Shown piece by piece: positions 18,393-59,840 of a DNA stretch of 64,000 nucleotides. A program made the position numbers and the translations under genes. Every line of letters begins with the position of its first letter. Within the stretch, counting starts at the first letter, position 1. The stretch comes from Leucobacter chromiisoli (GTDB lineage Bacteria > Actinomycetota > Actinomycetes > Actinomycetales > Microbacteriaceae): assembly GCF_016522505.1 (NCBI RefSeq), contig NZ_JAEHOH010000019.1, forward strand, positions 1 through 64,000, written 5' to 3'. The notes under the pieces were generated by a model. The model saw only the letters and a list, made by a program, of their open reading frames with translations. It searched no databases and had not been told where the DNA came from.

Positions 18393-19510
18393 GCGCGGAC
18401 AGCGCGGGCTCGGGCGGCGTGAGTTCAGGCGGCGTGAGCCCGGAGCAGGGAGCCGACCGCTTCCTGCGGCACGTCGCGCTCGAACGCGGGCTCTCGGAGA
18501 ACAGCCGCGGCGCCTATCGGCGCGATCTGACGGCCTATGCCCAGTGGCTCGCGGGGCGCGGCATCCGGGATCTCGCGGAGGTCACCCCCGACACGCTGTC
18601 CGCCTACGTCGCCGAGCTCGGGGGCGCGCCGGGGGCGGGAAGCGGCGGCCGATCCGAGCGCGATCCCGGCTCCGATCCTCACCCCGACCGCGATCCGGGG
18701 CTCGCCGCCGATCCCGCCGATCCCGGTCCCGGTCCCGAGCCCGCAGCGCCGCCGCCGCGTCGTCTCGCCCCGGCCTCGATGGCGAGGCGCATGTCGACGG
18801 TGCGGGGGATGCACCGCTTCCTCTTCGAGGAGGGCGCGCTGCCCGCGCACGCCGGAAGCGGCGTGCGCACGCCGAAGAAGGGTCGGCGGCTGCCGAAGGC
18901 GCTGGCGTTCGAGGAGGTCGAGGCGCTGCTCGGCGCGATCGGCGGGGACGACCCGGTGAGCCTGCGGGATCGCGCCCTGCTCGAGCTGCTCTACGCCAGC
19001 GGGGCGCGGGTCAGCGAGGTCACCGCCCTCGACATCGACGACCTGCTCGCAGGCGGAGGCGGCGACGCCTGGGGCGATCCCGAGCGGGCGCTCGGCGAGG
19101 GCGGTTTCCTGCGCGTGACCGGCAAGGGCTCCAAGCAGCGGATCGTGCCCTACGGGCGCTACGCGGGCCGCGCGCTCGCGGCGTACCTGGTGCGCGCACG
19201 GCCGCAGATGGCGGCGAAGGGCGTCGGGACGCCGGCGCTGTTCGTCGGGCCCCGCGGCGCCAGGCTCTCGCGTCAGAGCGCGTGGCTCGTGATCAAGGCG
19301 GCCGCCGAGCGCGCCGAGATCGCGGCCGAGGTGTCTCCCCACACCCTGCGCCACTCCTTCGCCACGCACCTGCTCGCGGGCGGCGCGGACGTGCGCACGG
19401 TGCAGGAGCTGCTCGGCCACGCCTCGGTGACGACCACGCAGATCTACACGCAGGTGACCGCCGATACGCTGCGAGAGCACTACCTGAGCGCCCATCCCCG
19501 GGCGAAGTAG
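18389..19510 (+). CDS. xerD: Site-specific tyrosine recombinase XerD
   Basis: 373 residues, longer than the usual ~300. All catalytic residues are present: R207 (SGARVSEV), K246 (GKGSK), H318 and R321 (HTLRH), H344 (LLGHAS) and Y353 (QIYTQ). XerC/XerD resolve chromosome dimers at dif. The extra length is mainly a Pro/Asp/Gly-rich insert at ~80-125 inside the N-terminal SAM-like domain, plus a Gly/Asp loop at ~219-237. The start is GTG 18389, overlapping the NUDIX stop. Context (pyrG-nudix-xerD) supports the chromosomal housekeeping role rather than a phage integrase. Confidence 0.92.
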
Positions 19511-52018: not shown

Positions 52019-52603
52019 CTACTTCCGCTTCGCAGCGGCCTTCGCGGCCCGCTTCGTCTCGCGCACCTTCGCGAGCGTCTCGGGCGACACGATGTCGGCG
52101 ACGCTGCGGAATGCCCCCTCCTCGCCGTAGGGGGCGCTCGCCTCGCGCCAGCCGTCGCCCTCGAAACCACACTGCTTGCCGAGCAGCGCGAGGAAGATCT
52201 TCGCCTTCTGCTCGCCGAAGCCCGGAAGCGCCCGCAGGCGCTTCAGCACCGTCGGGCCGTCGGGGCCGGCGCCGCTCCCGTCGGGCGTCGTCCAGATCGC
52301 GCTCGCCTCCCCGCCCCAGTCGTCGAGCAGCTGCTGGCACAGCGTCTGCACGCGGCCGGCCATGGATCCCGGGAACCGGTGCACGGCCGGGGTCTGCCTG
52401 AACACCTCGACGAAGGCCTCGGGATCCGCCCCCGCGATCGCCGCGGCGTCGAACGCGCCGAGCCGCTGCTCGATCTTCAGCGGCCCGACGAACGCGACCT
52501 CCATCGCCACCTGCTGGTCGAGCAGCATGCCCAGAACAAGTGCGAGGGGGTTGTTCGTGAGCAATTCATCGGCGGCGGCGTCGCCGGTCAGCTGGAGCTT
52601 CAT
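52019..52603 (-). CDS. HhH-GPD-type base-excision DNA repair protein
   Basis: 194 residues. It starts MKLQLTGDAAADELLTNNPL, then GMLLDQQVAMEVAF and the HhH element VLKRLRALPGFGEQKAKIFL (~129-148). The protein looks complete and probably acts on damaged bases. Its first ~33 codons recur twice more downstream as fragments, making this gene the likely intact member of an accretion site. ATG 52603 has TAATCT just upstream. A low-GC gene begins 93 bases away on the other strand. Confidence 0.84.
   Translation of the reverse strand: MKLQLTGDAAADELLTNNPLALVLGMLLDQQVAMEVAFVGPLKIEQRLGAFDAAAIAGADPEAFVEVFRQTPAVHRFPGSMAGRVQTLCQQLLDDWGGEASAIWTTPDGSGAGPDGPTVLKRLRALPGFGEQKAKIFLALLGKQCGFEGDGWREASAPYGEEGAFRSVADIVSPETLAKVRETKRAAKAAAKRK
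52511..52584 (-). repeat. HhH-GPD 5'-segment copy A (inside the intact gene)
   Basis: This segment encodes residues ~7-31 (DAAADELLTNNPLALVLG then MLLDQQ). The edge TGCTGGTCGAGCAGCATGCC (52512-52531) is identical in copy B (53859-53878) and close in copy C (56088-56104). The 5-bp arms TGCTG and CAGCA flank GTCGAG, giving a small inverted repeat that could be a recombination core. Confidence 0.8.
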
Positions 52604-52696
52604 GGGTAGATTATTCCAATCCTTGAGTCGCAACAGGGCACCTTTGAGTGTGAGATGAAAGTACCTTGTCTTGCCTCTGTACAATAGTCTGGTTCC

Positions 52697-53737
52697 ATGA
52701 CTGAACCTCGATCTGCAGGCGATATTAGTTTCATTACGCAGCAAGCGCCGGTCGATGAACGTGGGCGCGCGCTGTACGCAATTGCCAGATCAATACTACG
52801 AGCTCAGCTTGATCAGCTGACCCACTCGGACCTGGAAGATTTGGACCGAGACCGCGCTGATGTGACGATGCGACAGCTAGCCAAGATGGCCCGGTTGAAC
52901 CGTGACAAAGGAATGCGTGGGGACGGTTTCGAGTGGGCTGTTCACGAGGCCATTCTCGGCGAAGAGCCGTCGGTACTGGAGCCGCTGGTAAATGTGATGA
53001 AGAAGGCCTCTCCTCCACGGTTTAGAACTCTTGAGGTGCCTAGATCGTTGCTTTTTGGGTATGAAAGGGCAAAGTATCTAGGATTTATCGACGCCATGGT
53101 TGAGGAGGCTGCGGACATGGCAGTTCTACTTCCCGATGGTCAAGGTCGGCCCTTCAAATTCGATACTTGGGTATCAGTAGCTGCTGGTGGTAAAGCCTCT
53201 GAGCCCCTCCTGCGCTCGCGAATCAAACAGATTTGGAAGACCGATCTGTTCCTCAGCGATGAGGAACGTCATAGACATCTCGCCACGACAATCAAGAGTA
53301 ATTGGCACACGCTAGAAGGAGGAGCGGGCCTACGAGTGGCGATTGTTCCTGAGGCGCCGGATCTTCGTGCTGGTGTTCGCTTTTCACAAAAGCATGGGCT
53401 TTGGCTTACGGTGCTACCTGATCCAGGTGGGTTCATGGGTCTCTTCAACGATGCGTACGAGGCTGTGGCGGAAGCAATCTATACCCTCGGTAAGCATGAA
53501 CGCGGTCACTACTTCTATAAGCCGACCCCTATGGGTCGCCGTCTCCAAGAACAGCTAGAAAAGTACCCAACAGCGAAAGTGGTCGATATCGAATACGCCC
53601 TGAATGAAGCCGCTCAGCAGCAACTCGTTGGAGTCGAACGGCGTCTGGTTTCGGTGGATGCACCAGGCTGGCTGCATTTGAACGCGTCAAGGGTCCCTGC
53701 CGTTGCACCCAAGCCATACTTTGAGCCTCTTGACTAA
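52697..53737 (+). CDS. Low-GC protein of unknown function, possible PD-(D/E)XK nuclease
   Basis: 346 residues. GC is near 50%, far below neighbours, so it was probably acquired. I do not recognise the family. The N-terminus is helical; GDGFEWAVHEAI (~76-86) with Glu79, then IKQIWKTDLFLSD (Asp183) and LATTIKSNWHTLEGGAGLRV (Lys200) fit the order E...D...xK of divergent PD-(D/E)XK nucleases; this is inference only. TACAAT (52680-52685) lies 11 bases before ATG 52697. It stands alone between HhH-GPD gene segment copies A and B, on the other strand, as the only gene of that interval. Confidence 0.7.
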   Translation: MTEPRSAGDISFITQQAPVDERGRALYAIARSILRAQLDQLTHSDLEDLDRDRADVTMRQLAKMARLNRDKGMRGDGFEWAVHEAILGEEPSVLEPLVNVMKKASPPRFRTLEVPRSLLFGYERAKYLGFIDAMVEEAADMAVLLPDGQGRPFKFDTWVSVAAGGKASEPLLRSRIKQIWKTDLFLSDEERHRHLATTIKSNWHTLEGGAGLRVAIVPEAPDLRAGVRFSQKHGLWLTVLPDPGGFMGLFNDAYEAVAEAIYTLGKHERGHYFYKPTPMGRRLQEQLEKYPTAKVVDIEYALNEAAQQQLVGVERRLVSVDAPGWLHLNASRVPAVAPKPYFEPLD

Positions 53738-53844
53738 CGCCCCGATGAATCAGTGGAGCAAATTTTCATGTGTTCGTTGCGTTCTTGGCTGAAGCATTTT
53801 GATTGGAGCTCTGGGTAGCGCGCTAAAATACAAGTTGCTATCTC

Positions 53845-53929
53845 CTGGTTAACGGAGTTGCTGGTCGAGCAGCATGCCGTTGAGCAGCGCGAGCGGATTC
53901 TCCGTGAGCAGGCGGTCGGCAGCGGGGTC
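53845..53929 (-). pseudogene. HhH-GPD 5'-fragment copy B (orphan)
   Basis: On the minus strand this encodes DPAADRLLTENPLALLNG then MLLDQQLR and a stop: the N-terminal part of the HhH-GPD protein, cut off right after LLDQQ. On its upstream side it is cut by the IS3 element end. It is no functional gene. It lies in direct orientation to copies A and C. Confidence 0.78.
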
Positions 53930-53956
53930 TGATGTAGGAACAGGTGACAGTTCTGG

Positions 53957-54844
53957 TTAGGCCGCGAGGGCCAGGTCGTTGTTCATGATGGCCTCGAACT
54001 CGATCGGCGTCAAACGGCCCAGGCGGACCTGCCTGCGTCGCCGGCGGTAGGTCCGCTCGATCCAGGTCACGATCGCGATCCGCAGTTCTTCACGTGTGGC
54101 CCAGGAGCGCCGGTTCAGGACGTTCTTCTGCAGCAGGCTGAAGAACGATTCCATTGCCGCGTTATCGCCGCAGGACGCGACCCTGCCCATCGAGCCGACG
54201 AGGTTGTGCGCGGCGAGTTCTCGACGCAGTTTCCTGCTTCGAAATTGCGATCCACGGTCGGAATGCACGATGCAGCCGTTCACGTCTTGGCGCATCCGGA
54301 CCGCGTTTCGGACGGCGCGGACCGCGAGTGATGCTTTCATTCTCGAGTCGATCGAGTAGCCCACGATCCGACCACTGAAAGCGTCCTTGACCGCGCAAAG
54401 ATAGAGTCGGCCTTCACTCGTTTTGTGTTCCGTGATGTCTGTCAGCCAGAGCTGGTTCGGTCGGGAAGCTGTGAACTGGTGACGCTCACGCCCGTGCTCG
54501 TCGATAACGACACAGAGATCGTCGTGAACAGCAGGGCCAGGCTTCTTCCCATTCTTGCTCCGCTTCTTCCCGAACACACTCCACCAGCCGTTCACCGATG
54601 CGATCCGCCACGCCGTCCGGTCCGACATCGCTTGTCCCTCGTCGCGGGCTTCGTCGGCGAGGAGCCGATACCCGAATTCGGGGTCGTCACGATGTGCGTC
54701 GAACAGCGCGTTCGCGCGATACGCCTCGCCCAACTCCCGGCTGGTGACTGGCGTCTTCAACCAGCGGTAGTAGGGCTGGCGGGCGAGCTTCAATACCCGG
54801 CACGACACCACGACGGGAATCCCGTCCGCGGCGAGCTCGCTCAC
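53957..54844 (-). CDS. IS3-family transposase OrfB
   Basis: 295 residues as a separate frame. The integrase-core DDE triad is D136 (WLTDITEH), D196 (VHSDRGSQF) and E232 (NAAMESFFSLLQ), with the D-35-E spacing and K/R later, all intact. It overlaps orfA by 4 bases. A -1 frameshift at GGGAAAAG (minus strand, 54865-54858) would fuse the frames to give OrfAB with KRLYPLVSELAADG, the normal IS3 N-terminus of the catalytic part. Confidence 0.92.
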   Translation of the reverse strand: MSELAADGIPVVVSCRVLKLARQPYYRWLKTPVTSRELGEAYRANALFDAHRDDPEFGYRLLADEARDEGQAMSDRTAWRIASVNGWWSVFGKKRSKNGKKPGPAVHDDLCVVIDEHGRERHQFTASRPNQLWLTDITEHKTSEGRLYLCAVKDAFSGRIVGYSIDSRMKASLAVRAVRNAVRMRQDVNGCIVHSDRGSQFRSRKLRRELAAHNLVGSMGRVASCGDNAAMESFFSLLQKNVLNRRSWATREELRIAIVTWIERTYRRRRRQVRLGRLTPIEFEAIMNNDLALAA

Positions 54845-55149
54845 GAGCGGGTAGAGCCTTTTCCCGGCAGATGAGCCTGCGACAGATACGCCGCTGCGCG
54901 ACGCAGCACCTCATTCTCTTGTTCGAGGAGGCGATTGCGTTTGCGGAGCTCACGCAGCTCGGCGGACTCCGACTTCGTCTCACCCGGCTGTTCGCCGGCC
55001 TCGACACGTGCCTGACGCATCCACTTGTCGAGCGTTCCAACATGGACGCCGAAATCTTTCGCGATCTGCGCGAGAGTGACGTCTGGATCACGGTTCTGGG
55101 CGACGCGGATCACGTCGTCGCGGAACTCCTTAGGAAACGGCTTGGGCAT
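54841..55149 (-). CDS. IS3-family transposase OrfA
   Basis: 102 residues. An HTH (~5-50, FRDDVIRVAQNRDPDVTLAQ) binds the terminal repeats, and a leucine-zipper-like coiled coil (LRKRNRLLEQENEVLRRAAA, ~68-87) mediates dimerisation, both typical of IS3 OrfA. The frame ends GKGSTRS, just past the slippery AAAAG used for OrfAB production. Confidence 0.92.
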   Translation of the reverse strand: MPKPFPKEFRDDVIRVAQNRDPDVTLAQIAKDFGVHVGTLDKWMRQARVEAGEQPGETKSESAELRELRKRNRLLEQENEVLRRAAAYLSQAHLPGKGSTRS

Positions 55150-55384
55150 GATGACATCCTTCCAGGCCAGCCCTCTCGGCTAGCCACGTTTGATGTCACC
55201 TGTTCCTGCATCAGACCCTCTTGCCCGAGGGGTTCCGGGGTGTCCACTCCGGCGGCTCGACGTGACTCCACATGCGCAATCACACTCGGTGACGATGCGT
55301 GCCAAGGCTTGCGAACTGTACCTCGGCTGGTCTGGCACTTGAACGGATGCCGCGGGAGGACGGGTCAGGTCATTCGATGAGCAT

Positions 55385-55409
55385 TGCATGTAGAATGCAT
55401 GTGTTATAT
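55385..55409 (+). promoter_or_regulatory. vapBC operator/promoter
   Basis: TGCAT-GTAGA-ATGCA (55385-55399) is a perfect inverted repeat; further GCAT/ATGC motifs follow. TTATAT (55404-55409) lies 9 bases before the vapB ATG, suggesting a leaderless transcript that the antitoxin can repress. Confidence 0.55.
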
Positions 55410-55418
55410 GCTAGTTGC

Positions 55419-55643
55419 ATGACAACGATCCAGGTTCGCAACGTCTCCGAGGAGACGAGCCGTGCGCTCAAAGCGAAGGCGGCGCTCGAGGGTCGTTCGC
55501 TGAGCGACTACCTGCTGCGCGAGCTCGACCGCCTCGCGACGCGTCCGAGCCGGGCCGAACTGCTGGAGCGGATCGCGAGCCGTAGCGTTGTCGCACTCGA
55601 ACCGGCGGCACAGGTGCTCGCCGAGCAGCGACGCGGTCGATGA
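55419..55643 (+). CDS. vapB: VapB/FitA-like ribbon-helix-helix antitoxin
   Basis: 74 residues. It begins MTTIQVRNVSEETSRALKAK, and LEGRSLSDYLLRELDRLA completes the ribbon-helix-helix. ATG 55419 is chosen because it matches the family start and the upstream TTATAT; upstream in-frame codons run through the operator. The stop overlaps vapC (ATGA). It should bind DNA and neutralise VapC. Confidence 0.88.
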   Translation: MTTIQVRNVSEETSRALKAKAALEGRSLSDYLLRELDRLATRPSRAELLERIASRSVVALEPAAQVLAEQRRGR

Positions 55644-56023
55644 CGCTCGTCGTCGATGCATCTGCGGTCGCCGAGATCCTATTCGGAACCGAAGCAGGGC
55701 GACGGGCGGCTGCGCTGATAGGCCAGCACGAACTGCTGGCGCCGCAGCACCTCACGGCCGAGGTCGCCTCCGTCATCCGCGGCTGGTCTCTCAGCCAGCA
55801 GGTCACCGACGAGCAGGCGCTGCGTGCATTCCGCGAGTTCGACGCGCTCGGCATCGAGCAGGTGCCGATGATGTCCATGCTGCCCGCCGTCTATTCCCTG
55901 CGGCACAATGTCAGCGCCTATGACGCCATGTACGTCGTGCTCGCGCGGGCAGCGCAGTGCTCACTGCTGACTCTCGACGCTCGTCTCTCGGCATCCGTTC
56001 CGGATTGCGCGCTGCTGCCGTAA
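55640..56023 (+). CDS. vapC: VapC PIN-domain ribonuclease toxin
   Basis: 127 residues. The PIN acidic residues are all present: D6 (VVDASAVAEIL), E41 (LTAEVASVIRG), D95 (SAYDAMYVVLA) and D113 (LLTLDARL). VapC toxins cleave tRNA or rRNA when freed from VapB. Intact and coupled to its antitoxin. It sits between the IS3 element and HhH-GPD fragment copy C. Confidence 0.9.
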   Translation: MTLVVDASAVAEILFGTEAGRRAAALIGQHELLAPQHLTAEVASVIRGWSLSQQVTDEQALRAFREFDALGIEQVPMMSMLPAVYSLRHNVSAYDAMYVVLARAAQCSLLTLDARLSASVPDCALLP

Positions 56024-56037
56024 CTTCTTGCGCCTCG

Positions 56038-56337
56038 TCAGGGTGCGAGCCACTCCCGCGTCATATTGCCCTCTGGTGAGCGCACCCGCTGGTCCAGCAG
56101 CATCCCGATCAGGAGCGCGAGCGGGTTCTCGGTGAGGAGCGTGTCGGCGGCAGCGTCGTCGGTGAGGTGGATGACCAGGAGTCCAGTGTCACCGATCTGG
56201 TGCTGAAACCACGGGGAACCGACGCGGAGCATGACCGAAGACTCGCCGCGGACGACTCCTGCCGGAGCGGTGCTGTCACCATGCGCCCAGAGAGACGCGC
56301 CCGAAGCGAGGTCGACACGGTGGGACATCGTCCGCAC
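56038..56337 (-). pseudogene. Chimeric remnant with HhH-GPD 5'-fragment copy C
   Basis: An open frame of 99 codons on the minus strand. Its second half reads LTDDAAADTLLTENPLALLI then GMLLDQR, the N-terminal HhH-GPD segment (DNA 56088-56178), and then diverges to VRSPEGN and a stop. Its first ~55 residues (for example GSPWFQHQIGDTGLLVI) do not match the HhH-GPD start and are unrecognised. It is probably not functional; it marks the outer border of the accessory segment. Confidence 0.68.
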
Positions 56338-56347
56338 GGCGCCCGAG

Positions 56348-58111
56348 TCAGGAATCGCCGAATCGGCCGTCCGTCCAGGCGAGCAGCTCGGGGATGAGCG
56401 GGGAGTCGGCCTCGACGAGCGGGACGTGGTCGACGCCGGGGTAGGTGCGGTAGTCGATCTGTCCGCCTGCGGCGCGGACTTCGTCGACGTACTCCTGCTG
56501 GGCCGCGGGGATGACGAGGGTATCGGCCTCGCCCTGCCCGATCAGGACGGGCGCCGGGATCGTGGCACGGGGCACGTTCTGAGCCAAGCGCGCTCCGAGC
56601 GGGCCCGCGGTCGGGTCGTCCCGGAAGATCGCCGGATCTGCGCTCAGTGCGAGGACGTCCAGGACCGAGACGAGCATGCCCGGCTCTGACAGGCACCGCG
56701 TCGACATCGATCGCACTGTCTGCTCGGCACCGGGACGGATGTACTCGCGCCAGGTCACATCGGGGTAGTTTTCGGTGTACGCGGCGACGACGAAGGAGGC
56801 GAAGACGCTGCCGCCCGTGACGTTCGGAAGATTCCGGACGAGGGCGGGCAGGTTGGCCGCCGGTGCGAGCGCGGCGACGCCGTGGAGCGTGAGCTCCGGG
56901 GAATAATCGGCGGCCGATGCGCCGCTCCACAGTGCCGCTCCGCCGCCCTGGGAGTGCCCCCACGCGACCACGTCCGTGCTGAGGTCGGCCGGCCCGAGCT
57001 GCCCAGCGGCGCGAACCGCGTCGAGGGAGGCGCGGGCCGAGTCCTCGCCGATCAGGTAGGGGTGCGGCCCCTCGGTGCCGAGCCCGATGTAATCGGTGGC
57101 GACGAGCGCCCAGCCCCGGTCGATGATCTCGGGCAGCACGAACAGCGCGCCGGAGCCGAACGGATCCTCGAGCAGCGACGGGGCGCACTGCTGCCCGAAC
57201 CCGGTGGTCCCATGAGGCCAGTCGGCGACGGGCCAGTGGCCGGGCCCGTTCTCGGGCACGACCACCAGACCGCTTGCCACGGCTGGGGTGCCGTCTGCTC
57301 GACTGCTCGTGTAGAGGATGCGCCACCCGATCGCACCCTCGGGCACTCCCCGCGTGAAGGGCTCTGCGCGGATCAGCTGGCCCGGTGCATCCGGCACATC
57401 GCGGGAAGGGGCGTAGAACTCGTCGACGACCGGCGATCCCTCGTGCAACCCGACACTCACCGCTCCCGCTGCGACGGCCAGGGCCAGCGACGCGATGGCC
57501 GCGGTCGTGCGCGCGAAGCGGCGCATCCTTCCAGGGGCGCGCCCGCGCGACGGCCCGGTCGCTCCTCGGAGCGCCCTCCATCCCGCCGTGCACCCGTCGA
57601 TGACGAGGCGCGCGCCGAAGGCGACGGCGGCGACGAGGAGCGTGATGTCGGGCCACAGCAGGGCGAGCAGACCGAGGATCGCCGATGCGGCGCCGAGCGC
57701 GCCCGCTGCGACCCGGTCATCGACGCCGATGCTGCGCCGGAACGCACCGGAGGCGGTGCGCACGCCGCCCACGAGCAGCCCCGCGGCGATCACGGCGGCG
57801 AGCACGCGCACGGTGAGGCCCATGTGCAGCAGCACGAACACGCCCGCTGCGACCCAGAGCACGGCCTCGAACACCAGGGCTCGCCGCCACCAGGAGGGCC
57901 CGTGGAGCTCGCTCTCTCGATCGTGGACGATGATCACGACGCCGTGGACGAGGAAGCCCGCTCCGACGAGCAGCGCGAGGACGTCCAGAGAGAGTGTCGG
58001 GCGGATGATCAGGAACGCTCCCAGCCCGAGCGCGAGCACCGCCAGGATGATGAGCTGCGAGCGGGGCTGCGACTCGGCCGCGGCGTCACTGTGCGGGGAC
58101 GTCGAGCTCAT
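56348..58111 (-). CDS. HdeD-like membrane domain fused to a secretory lipase-like hydrolase
   Basis: 587 residues. The N-terminal ~175 residues form six hydrophobic helices of the HdeD/DUF308 type (FLIIRPTLSLDVLALLVGAG). A further membrane segment (~200-225) precedes an alpha/beta hydrolase domain with nucleophile elbow AWGHSQGGGAALW (Ser ~395) and a late His in YPGVDHVPLVEA, as in the LIP secretory-lipase family. The hydrolase should lie outside the membrane. The combination is uncommon and its substrate unknown. Confidence 0.82.
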   Translation of the reverse strand: MSSTSPHSDAAAESQPRSQLIILAVLALGLGAFLIIRPTLSLDVLALLVGAGFLVHGVVIIVHDRESELHGPSWWRRALVFEAVLWVAAGVFVLLHMGLTVRVLAAVIAAGLLVGGVRTASGAFRRSIGVDDRVAAGALGAASAILGLLALLWPDITLLVAAVAFGARLVIDGCTAGWRALRGATGPSRGRAPGRMRRFARTTAAIASLALAVAAGAVSVGLHEGSPVVDEFYAPSRDVPDAPGQLIRAEPFTRGVPEGAIGWRILYTSSRADGTPAVASGLVVVPENGPGHWPVADWPHGTTGFGQQCAPSLLEDPFGSGALFVLPEIIDRGWALVATDYIGLGTEGPHPYLIGEDSARASLDAVRAAGQLGPADLSTDVVAWGHSQGGGAALWSGASAADYSPELTLHGVAALAPAANLPALVRNLPNVTGGSVFASFVVAAYTENYPDVTWREYIRPGAEQTVRSMSTRCLSEPGMLVSVLDVLALSADPAIFRDDPTAGPLGARLAQNVPRATIPAPVLIGQGEADTLVIPAAQQEYVDEVRAAGGQIDYRTYPGVDHVPLVEADSPLIPELLAWTDGRFGDS

Positions 58112-58197: not shown

Positions 58198-59709
58198 TCA
58201 GCCCCCGAGCCCGCCCGTGAGTCGCGCGTGGAAGTCGGTCGTCTGCTCGTTCATGCCGACCAGTTCGACCGTCTTGCCGTGCTGCTCGTACTTCGTGACG
58301 ATGGCGTCGAGCGCCGCGACCGTGGAAGCGTCCCAGATGTGCGACTGCGACATGTCGATCACGACGCGCTCGGGATCCTCGGCGTACTCGAACAGCGTGG
58401 TGAGGTCGTTGCTCGACGCGAAGAACAGCTCCCCGGTCACGAAGTAGTGCGCGGTGCTCACGCCGAACGCCTCGGTCACCTCGCGATCCACCGACACGAA
58501 GTGCGCGACGCGCCGCACGAACAGTACCGAGGCCACGAACACGCCCACGATCACGCCGATGGCGAGGTTGTGCGTCGCCACCACGACCACGACCGTCGTC
58601 ACCATGACGAAGGTCTCGCTCTTCGGCATGCGCTTGAGCGTGGACGGCGTGATGCTGTGCCAGTCGAACGCCGCGACCGACACCATGATCATCACGGCGA
58701 CGAGCGCCGCCATGGGGATGATGCTGACGAGGTCGCCGAGCGCGACGACGAGGATCAGGAGGAACACGCCCGCGAGGAAGGTGGAGACGCGGGTGCGCGC
58801 CCCCGACACCTTCACGTTCATCATGGTCTGGCCGATCACCGCGCATCCGCCCATTCCGCCGAAGAAGCCCGAGAGGATGTTGGCCGAGCCCTGCGCCCAG
58901 GATTCCCGCGTCTTGTTCGAGTGGGTGTCGGTCACCTCGTCGACGAGCTTCGCCGTCATCAGCGACTCCATGAGACCGACGACCGCCACGGCGAGCGCGT
59001 ACGGGGCGATGATCGTGAAGGTCTCCCAGGTGAGCGGGACGTCGGGGACGAAGAGCTCGGGCAGGCTGCGCGGCAGCTCGCCCTGGTCGCCCACCGTCGG
59101 CACGTTGAACGCGAAGAGCACCGCCGCGGCGGTGATGACGATCACCGAGACGAGCGGGGCGGGGATCGCCTTGGTGATCCGGGGCATGACGATGATGACG
59201 AGGATCCCGGCGGCGACCAGCGGGTAGACGAGCCAGGGCACGCCGATGAGGTGCGGCAGCTGGGCCATGAAGACGAGGATCGCCAGGGCGTTCACGAAGC
59301 CGACCATGACGCTCCGGGGGAGGAAGCGCATGAGCTTGGCCACGCCGAGCACGGCGAGGACGATCTGGAAGACGCCGGCGAGGATGATGGTCGCGATGAG
59401 GTAGTCGAGGCCGTAGGTCGGGGCGACGGGCGCGACCACGAGCGCCACGGCGCCGGTGGCTGCCGTGATCATGGCGGGCCTGCCGCCGAGGAACGCGATC
59501 GCCACCGCCATGATGAATGACGAGAAGAGGCCGACCTTCGGGTCGACGCCCGCGATGATCGAGAAGGAGATGGCCTCGGGGATCAGCGCGAGGCCGACGA
59601 CCAGCCCGGCCAGAGCCTCGCGGGTGAGGAGCCGGGGGCTCTTCAGCGCCTGAATGACGGACGGCTGCGGCCGATACCGGTTCTTGCCGTCCGTCGTCGC
59701 GGTGGCCAT
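58198..59709 (-). CDS. SulP family anion transporter with STAS domain
   Basis: 503 residues. The start region GLVVGLALIPEAISFSIIAG is the SulP signature; about 10-12 membrane segments follow, then a C-terminal STAS domain (~410-500) with VVIDMSQSHIWDASTVAALD. Substrates in bacteria include sulfate, bicarbonate and dicarboxylates. GGAGGAA lies before ATG 59709. It is divergent from a MerR gene with an operator between, so it is likely regulated by it. Confidence 0.9.
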   Translation of the reverse strand: MATATTDGKNRYRPQPSVIQALKSPRLLTREALAGLVVGLALIPEAISFSIIAGVDPKVGLFSSFIMAVAIAFLGGRPAMITAATGAVALVVAPVAPTYGLDYLIATIILAGVFQIVLAVLGVAKLMRFLPRSVMVGFVNALAILVFMAQLPHLIGVPWLVYPLVAAGILVIIVMPRITKAIPAPLVSVIVITAAAVLFAFNVPTVGDQGELPRSLPELFVPDVPLTWETFTIIAPYALAVAVVGLMESLMTAKLVDEVTDTHSNKTRESWAQGSANILSGFFGGMGGCAVIGQTMMNVKVSGARTRVSTFLAGVFLLILVVALGDLVSIIPMAALVAVMIMVSVAAFDWHSITPSTLKRMPKSETFVMVTTVVVVVATHNLAIGVIVGVFVASVLFVRRVAHFVSVDREVTEAFGVSTAHYFVTGELFFASSNDLTTLFEYAEDPERVVIDMSQSHIWDASTVAALDAIVTKYEQHGKTVELVGMNEQTTDFHARLTGGLGG

Positions 59710-59840
59710 GCGGTTCCTCCAGTGTTCGTGTGCGCGCTCTCGACGTGAAAGCATGGGTGAAGCCTGCGGGCGCGCCTTCGCGGTCGCCCGGCGGGCCGAT
59801 CCGCGCGGGTCGCGGCCCGGCGAAGGCGGGCACAGCAAGA

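Follow-up and report, generated by a model that had tools for sequence, protein, structure and literature searches.

A gene for an HhH-GPD-type base excision repair protein (TIGR03252) lies on the minus strand at positions 52022-52603 of a 64,000-nucleotide stretch of Leucobacter chromiisoli (contig NZ_JAEHOH010000019.1, positions 1 to 64,000), here called the window. Comparison of genomes shows that segments were inserted at a fixed point near the start of this gene, in the codons LLD|Q. The far end of each segment retains the old 5' end of the gene as an orphan, and the gene-proximal end carries an in-frame replacement. Successive insertions can occur, always next to the gene body. It is well supported by these sequences that the segments are recombinase-less cassettes, inserted at a fixed step with exchange of the gene 5' end. 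The site is probably a site-specific insertion hotspot for such tiny cassettes, served by an enzyme acting in trans, most likely a large serine recombinase. The identity of the enzyme is the best reading of the data and not a demonstration.

Repeated gene starts and their recurrence

The intact gene scores 282.8 bits against TIGR03252 (cut-off 136.5). Genomes were searched with A1, a 38-column profile of the N-terminus of the repair gene. In the genome of the window, A1 matches 52490-52603 (E 9.4e-22), 56083-56172 (3.1e-16) and 53855-53935 (2.0e-12). An earlier note on this DNA had recognized three copies of the 5' end of the gene, and the same three are recovered by the profile and as an 85-nt repeat family at 52498, 53845 and 56073 (65% and 76% identity to the middle copy). 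They are called A (in the intact gene), B and C. The 20-base identical edge described for A and B is also real: TGCTGGTCGAGCAGCATGCC is present at two sites in the 3.35-Mb assembly, 52512 and 53859, and the reversed pattern used as a control is present at none.

Both orphans, B and C, depart from the gene sequence after LLDQ. The earlier claim that they break at the same codons can be refined to a break inside LLD|Q. Based on junction comparisons, the presumed crossover step is GA, at 52518-52519 (minus strand) in the regenerated attachment site of the gene. Orphan B (53855-53935, minus strand) has its presumed crossover at 53865-53866, and its own 5' side is cut by an IS3 element. Orphan C (56083-56178, minus strand; presumed crossover at 56093-56094) is likely the native 5' end of the gene, based on the profile match and the comparison with congeners. 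It retains the entire 5' end, but compared with Leucobacter tardus (L033) its start codon is CTG. By eye, the DNA upstream of orphan C resembles the native promoter. In 13 of 14 comparisons with Leucobacter genes, orphan C is closer than the present 5' end; from this we infer that copy A, the first ~85 coding bases of the intact gene, came with segment 1. Segment 1 (A-B) is 1347 bp from crossover to crossover (52520-53866, minus strand) and consists of the new gene 5' end, a cargo gene and a far-end half-site. Segment 2 (B-C; 53867-56094, minus strand) is 2228 bp, including an IS3 element of about 1.28 kb.

The orphan 5' ends total 15 and come from 12 genomes, which belong to seven genera in three families; the samples for genus, family and order overlap. 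Among 54 Leucobacter genomes, 37 have a match, and orphans are present in the genome of the window (G000), G018 and G069. The family search covers 398 genomes, of which 185 have a match (E<=0.1) and six more than one. Here, orphans are seen in G000, G295 and G375; the second matches of G098, G149 and G171 turned out weak on re-scoring (E 0.05-0.08). Among 396 genomes of the order, 180 have a match (1e-4), and the eight with more than one match (G000, G467, G587, G615, G646, G694, G768 and G774) all contain orphans. With the genome of the window counted each time, the site is occupied in 3/37, 3/185 and 8/180 of the matching genomes; thus occupancy is low.

The orphan matches end at profile columns 29-35 in all 15 cases, and at column 32 in 11 of them. 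Because the profile ends at column 38 and is unable to reveal longer orphans, the DNA junctions were read in addition, and all of them leave the gene at the core. In 11 of the 12 genomes, the orphans are followed downstream by the repair gene or its body, on the same strand of one contig. The contig of G069 ends before it and has orphans without the repair gene; this assembly contains 8% contamination. G018 has two copies, 96% identical, of a 223-bp stretch of its upstream flank (L145, 3188-3410 and 7119-7341), one of them inside the segment. It looks as if the segment captured the flank of a former host.

Empty sites are seen in congeners of G375 (n=5), G295 (n=6) and G694 (n=9), whose upstream regions were compared. 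The absence of segments was judged by blastn (1e-5, on the gene strand) and tblastx (1e-8). In all 20 congeners the repair gene is uninterrupted through the core, the orphan aligns with the native 5' end up to the core, and the upstream region has no match to the segments of the occupied genomes. For 12 of the 20, the flank outside the gene start also aligns collinearly as far as the core: five of five for G375 (about 1.6 kb), two of six for G295 (with gaps) and five of nine for G694 (0.8-1.3 kb). In the remaining congeners the flank is uninformative, as just the last 84-190 bp align. The orphan is a better match to the congeners than the present 5' end in five of five comparisons for G375 and in six of nine for G694 (two ties, one against). 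For G295, two comparisons are for, one is a tie and three are against; the two ends are 96% alike. The fixed breakpoints, the empty sites and the comparison of old and new ends support the proposal of the earlier note that small elements insert at one point, where each provides the gene with a new 5' end and the old one stays behind.

Junctions and the candidate enzyme

Read in the direction of the gene, the orphans have CTN or TTC followed by GA-YCAG, after which comes non-gene DNA. The junction of a larger element in G774, described below, reads GAC-TC. Xer-type use of the core was considered and is presumably to be rejected, as the core does not resemble dif. Partner sites differ at the base directly 5' of GA in six pairs (C/B of the window, the small cassette of G774, G467, G646, G694 and G768), and at the base directly 3' of GA in one pair (G375).

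Common to the far ends is a weak motif, [TGC]T[AG]ACC, which starts at offset 12 outward from GA. It is exact in eight of 15 junctions, L042 being counted. With a leave-one-out matrix, in which the near-identical G646 junction was left out, nine of 13 junctions are in the top 0.2% of the background and four are outside; the 13 are not all independent, because G295 and G069, and likewise G615, G768 and G467, look related beyond the core. In the window, the far-end half-site of segment 1 (53846-53866, minus strand) has TTAACC at offset 12 (score 9.76, background fraction 1.15e-4). The half-site of segment 2 (56074-56094, minus strand) has CTCACC, which differs from the motif in one letter (score 6.27, background fraction 1.35e-3). 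An in-frame stop is located inside the motif in 11 of 15 junctions, so that translation of the orphan would give a peptide of ~35 residues.

A further junction is found at position 7863 of L042, 138 bp upstream of the repair gene, with a homologue of VapBC just past it. A 12-junction matrix made without L042, and also without G646 and the left G069 junction, was scanned over 80 further loci. Position 7863 of L042 ranks first with 32.1 bits, and the next of 2,364,678 sequence windows has 17.1. As the junction was first seen by eye, the scan measures it and does not predict it. In L044, VapBC is at the same place without a recognizable orphan.

No recombinase is seen in the 13 closed segments, whose reading frames were listed and whose main proteins were scanned. 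Among the PF07508 matches of the 12 orphan genomes, none is inside a closed segment, and the same holds for PF00589 in the five of the 12 that were searched for it. This agrees with the earlier note, which saw no integrase in the segments and considered either a recombinase in trans or homologous recombination. The former fits the fixed breakpoint and the far-end motif better than the latter.

The repair gene of G774 is interrupted at the same step by a 6.8-kb mobilizable element, which adjoins a small cassette of the common kind. The element encodes a 512-aa large serine recombinase (PF00239, PF07508, PF13408), a helix-turn-helix protein, Rep-like and NikA-like proteins, and a MobA-like relaxase. 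Its left half-site contains TTAACCATG at offset 12 outward from GA, which is the offset of the cassette motif. This half-site is matched or beaten by 475 of 963,180 sequence windows; the register was noticed by eye. Relatives of the recombinase (E<=1e-20) are present in 41 of the 396 genomes of the order, with at most 42% identity among the matches listed, G774 aside. In G215, a relative is on the contig of the repair gene with other genes between. The 21 plasmid records matched are all below 60% identity, and none of 56 pattern-matched stretches in viral contigs is a relative.

The presence of such an enzyme at the same step in G774 is the chief reason to favor a large serine recombinase. The other is that, judged from where partner junctions differ, the exchange is confined to very few bases. 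The cassette would be a circle with one joint site, in which the half from its own gene 5' end meets a distinct far-end half. A recombinase acting in trans would recombine the joint site with the chromosomal site, at or beside the GA of CTN-GA-YCAG, and the chromosomal site would be regenerated after insertion. The replacement 5' end includes DNA upstream of the coding start and presumably maintains the function of the repair gene. The segments often carry defence or toxin-antitoxin genes, a cargo that presumably pays for itself.

Several facts weigh against a large serine recombinase, or against parts of this scheme. The joint site would be a hybrid, and phage serine integrases are reported, in a passage of PMC3783163, to be unable to recombine such pairings. 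The right half-site of the G774 element shows no match to the motif; 514,900 of 963,180 sequence windows score as high. Five of the 12 orphan genomes (G069, G615, G694, G646 and G768, the last two of which are single-contig) have no PF07508 protein, which means that the cassettes do not lie in genomes with a resident enzyme. The outer motif shows no enrichment at 47 loci with serine-recombinase fragments (some overlapping, and many with just ~1.5 kb of flank), with 17 hits in 359,438 windows against 63 in 1,366,400 control windows. Large serine recombinases exchange strands at a 2-bp central dinucleotide; for GA in this role, six pairs would set the 5' limit, and the 3' limit depends on one pair, where a later C-to-T change is possible. 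The junctions of G018, G467 and G587/G646 and the left junction of G069 fit the far-end motif poorly. Across 80 gene sites, the arms at offset 8 about GA agree at a mean of 4.5 of 7 positions, and symmetry about GA is third among 70 choices of center and offset. A center one base off, with the arms TGCTG/CAGCA, is more symmetric. The idea that the gene sites are palindromic about GA was rejected, as the symmetry over the 80 sites is weak. At these sites TGCCGAT is exact at offset 8 on the left in 21, on the right in six and on both sides in three; the cassette motif is at offset 12-13. According to part of the text of PMC3783163, the zinc-domain motif is 5 bp nearer the center in attB than in attP, and this rule is weakly echoed at the gene sites.

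It is on balance unlikely that the same cassettes are moved in trans by a tyrosine integrase of the kind acting at the 5' ends of dusA and prfC, with a 6-8 bp exchange around CTSGACCAG. The cassettes would then be very small cis-mobilizable elements (microCIMEs). Their topology, with a new 5' end and tandem accretion, is that of dusA/prfC elements and cis-mobilizable elements (CIMEs) as described in passages of PMC8409611 and PMC7563491. The most symmetric arms, TGCTG/CAGCA, would also suit such an enzyme, and all five genomes searched have tyrosine recombinases (PF00589). Against it, the differences 5' of GA in six pairs and 3' of GA in G375 are awkward for a 6-8 bp overlap. The third, presumably non-Xer, tyrosine recombinases of G295 and G375 are unmatched to each other at 60 bits, and no tyrosine recombinase was found at the site in the five of 12 genomes searched. 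A relaxase or another HUH enzyme could recombine single strands at sites sharing the left half and differing on the right. The junctions do have the gene 5' end in common as their left half, with right halves that vary, and the G774 element encodes a MobA-like relaxase. Most far ends, however, have a motif of their own that a one-sided mechanism would not need, and no relaxase is seen among the scanned cassette proteins, which makes this explanation quite improbable.

The orphans might instead be decayed paralogues, or products of tandem duplication or of homologous recombination with foreign DNA, and chance or conservation would then account for the similar breakpoints. This would suit the 96% identity of the two 5' ends in G295, where congeners do not separate old from new, and the 96% duplication of the 223-bp flank piece in G018. 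Ordinary recombination may contribute at some loci. As a general explanation it is very improbable, given an endpoint fixed in 15 of 15 orphans, a far-end motif common to unrelated cargoes, and empty sites in congeners. Cassettes served in trans by a large serine recombinase remain the preferred reading.

It can be speculated, with considerable doubt, that a recombinase in trans operates an integron-like capture system anchored at the start of the repair gene, with circles that carry the replacement start into other species. All sites would share the gene-derived half, so that the DNA between a far-end half-site and a gene start could leave as a circle. Single defence or toxin-antitoxin genes would spread as minimal cassettes, with the site regenerated for the next one. 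The duplicated flank of G018 could then be considered as a captured piece of a former host.

A phage origin of the site was considered and rejected. A tblastn search with the N-terminus gives a single match (E=4) in 50,697 phage records. Pattern scans of viral contigs give 29, 0 and 3 stretches, the translations of which are unrelated (by eye for the 29). Five plasmid records are not orphans as far as the query reaches, because the match covers all 38 residues.

Relation to known elements

Elements inserted into the 5' ends of dusA and prfC, such as dusA-specific integrative mobilizable elements (IMEs) and the integrative conjugative element SXT, insert in the 5' coding region and supply N-terminal coding sequence and a promoter (passages of PMC8409611). 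Insertion is likewise within the 5' coding region here, with in-frame replacement. Those elements are large and have their own integrase, whereas the closed segments are 0.5-2.2 kb with none seen, and the target is TIGR03252. CIMEs keep their att sites and lack genes for recombination and conjugation, according to part of PMC7563491. Similarly, the segments retain putative att sites without recombination or conjugation modules, and accretion with an IME is seen at the same site in G774. CIMEs derive by deletion from an integrative conjugative element or IME of the same specificity, and the segments may descend from an IME in this way. The G774 IME is at the same step, but its right half-site gives no match, and no parent element was found that shares the far end of the segments. 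Of the systems compared here, the features of microCIMEs appear to fit the segments best.

In the staphylococcal cassette chromosome (SCC), one half of the site copies the gene end and restores it, and recombinase-less pseudo-SCCs exist. The core of integron cassettes is GTTRRRY. SCC and the Enterococcus cassette chromosome (ECC) are serine-recombinase elements at the end of a conserved gene, and multiple attR sites are reported in 16 of 32 ECCs in a passage of PMC6222049. The hotspot described here is similarly at the end of a conserved gene and accumulates putative att sites. SCC and ECC carry ccr and use the 3' region of rlmH, in contrast to the 5' end of TIGR03252, the lack of ccr, the single-gene size and the occurrence in Actinomycetota here. 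The segments would work like integron cassettes in being small and recombinase-less, with arrays growing at a fixed end beside a regenerated site, but GTTRRRY is not in the junctions when these are read by eye.

The site is not named in the titles or abstract starts found among openly licensed PubMed Central (PMC) papers. In the same set, no paper combines HhH-GPD with attB, and none contains TIGR03252 or 'HhH-GPD-type base excision'. Very small site-specific cassettes would be using this attachment site in at least three families of one order of Actinomycetota, and single defence genes would have a simple route to move. An ordinary repair gene serves as the anchor, so a search for orphan gene starts could reveal defence genes that integrase-based island finders miss. 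Should the enzyme be a serine recombinase, this would be a natural case of such an enzyme acting on hybrid sites.

Segments, cargo and neighboring genes

As the earlier note had it, a low-GC gene lies between A and B, and an IS3 element and VapBC lie between B and C. Segment 1 has a GC content of 53.5%, against 67.8% in the remainder of that 6-kb stretch. Its cargo is a 346-aa protein (52697-53737, plus strand) without sequence match in Pfam, NCBIfam, PADLOC or PDB. The protein is 28% identical (8e-26) to a 354-aa protein that is cargo at the same site in G768, and among 258 genomes of the order it is present in the genome of the window only. There are 681 homologues, and the names among those listed are hypothetical or uncharacterized. 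Relatives are found in the Pseudomonas phages H66 (51%) and AUS531phi (27%). The H66 relative (L257, 3465-4535) is surrounded by ORFan genes, and a putative host nuclease inhibitor gene is nearby. The AlphaFold model has a mean pLDDT (predicted local distance difference test score) of 72, and the best fold match has an E-value of 0.73. E79, D183 and K200 are conserved, and one might guess at a PD-(D/E)XK-like nuclease.

The IS3-family insertion sequence of segment 2 (53930-55213, minus strand) contains the frames 54841-55149 and 53957-54844 (NF033516, 2.5e-69) and has inverted repeats. It can be considered a passenger of the segment, because its end truncates orphan B. The cargo is a VapB-like antitoxin of the FitA-like ribbon-helix-helix type (55419-55643, plus strand; PF22513, 4.7e-8), whose start was picked by eye within the listed frame 55299-55643, and a VapC-like PIN-domain toxin (55640-56023, plus strand; PF01850, 3.6e-11). 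Homologues of this VapC are directly upstream of the same repair gene in L042 (83% identical) and L044 (89%).

The cargo of the other segments is diverse. G467 carries AbiU/AIPR (PADLOC, 2.3e-115; PF10592, 9.9e-42). G295 carries Phd/YefM and a ParE-type toxin, together with an APH-superfamily fragment, and G069 carries a Phd/YefM antitoxin with, by eye, a similar toxin. DUF4265 is seen in G615 and DUF3021 in G774, and no family could be assigned to the scanned proteins of the G375, G587 and G694 segments. Defence or toxin-antitoxin cargo is therefore frequent but not universal. The G069 contig (L146, 1-3701) has two orphans. Its left segment, which is open and at least 3.7 kb, contains a DNA-methyltransferase-like gene (by eye) and a PDC-S19 gene (2.9e-80). 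Larger segments may therefore use the same site. Past the G018 orphan, outside any closed segment, there are a gene for a 404-aa protein and a NucC-like PD-DExK gene (2.9e-23).

Upstream of orphan C, a secretory-lipase/DUF308 gene (56348-58111) is located between the orphan and a SulP gene (58198-59838), without a recognized junction. In Leucobacter tardus (L033), the SulP gene (82% over 485 aa) is immediately upstream of the repair gene, which for the window accords with an empty site in a congener, and the lipase/DUF308 gene may be a further, older insertion. The window also contains a tyrosine recombinase, presumably of the Xer type, at 18902-19459 (PF00589, 131.7 bits), ~33 kb away and with no apparent link to the hotspot.

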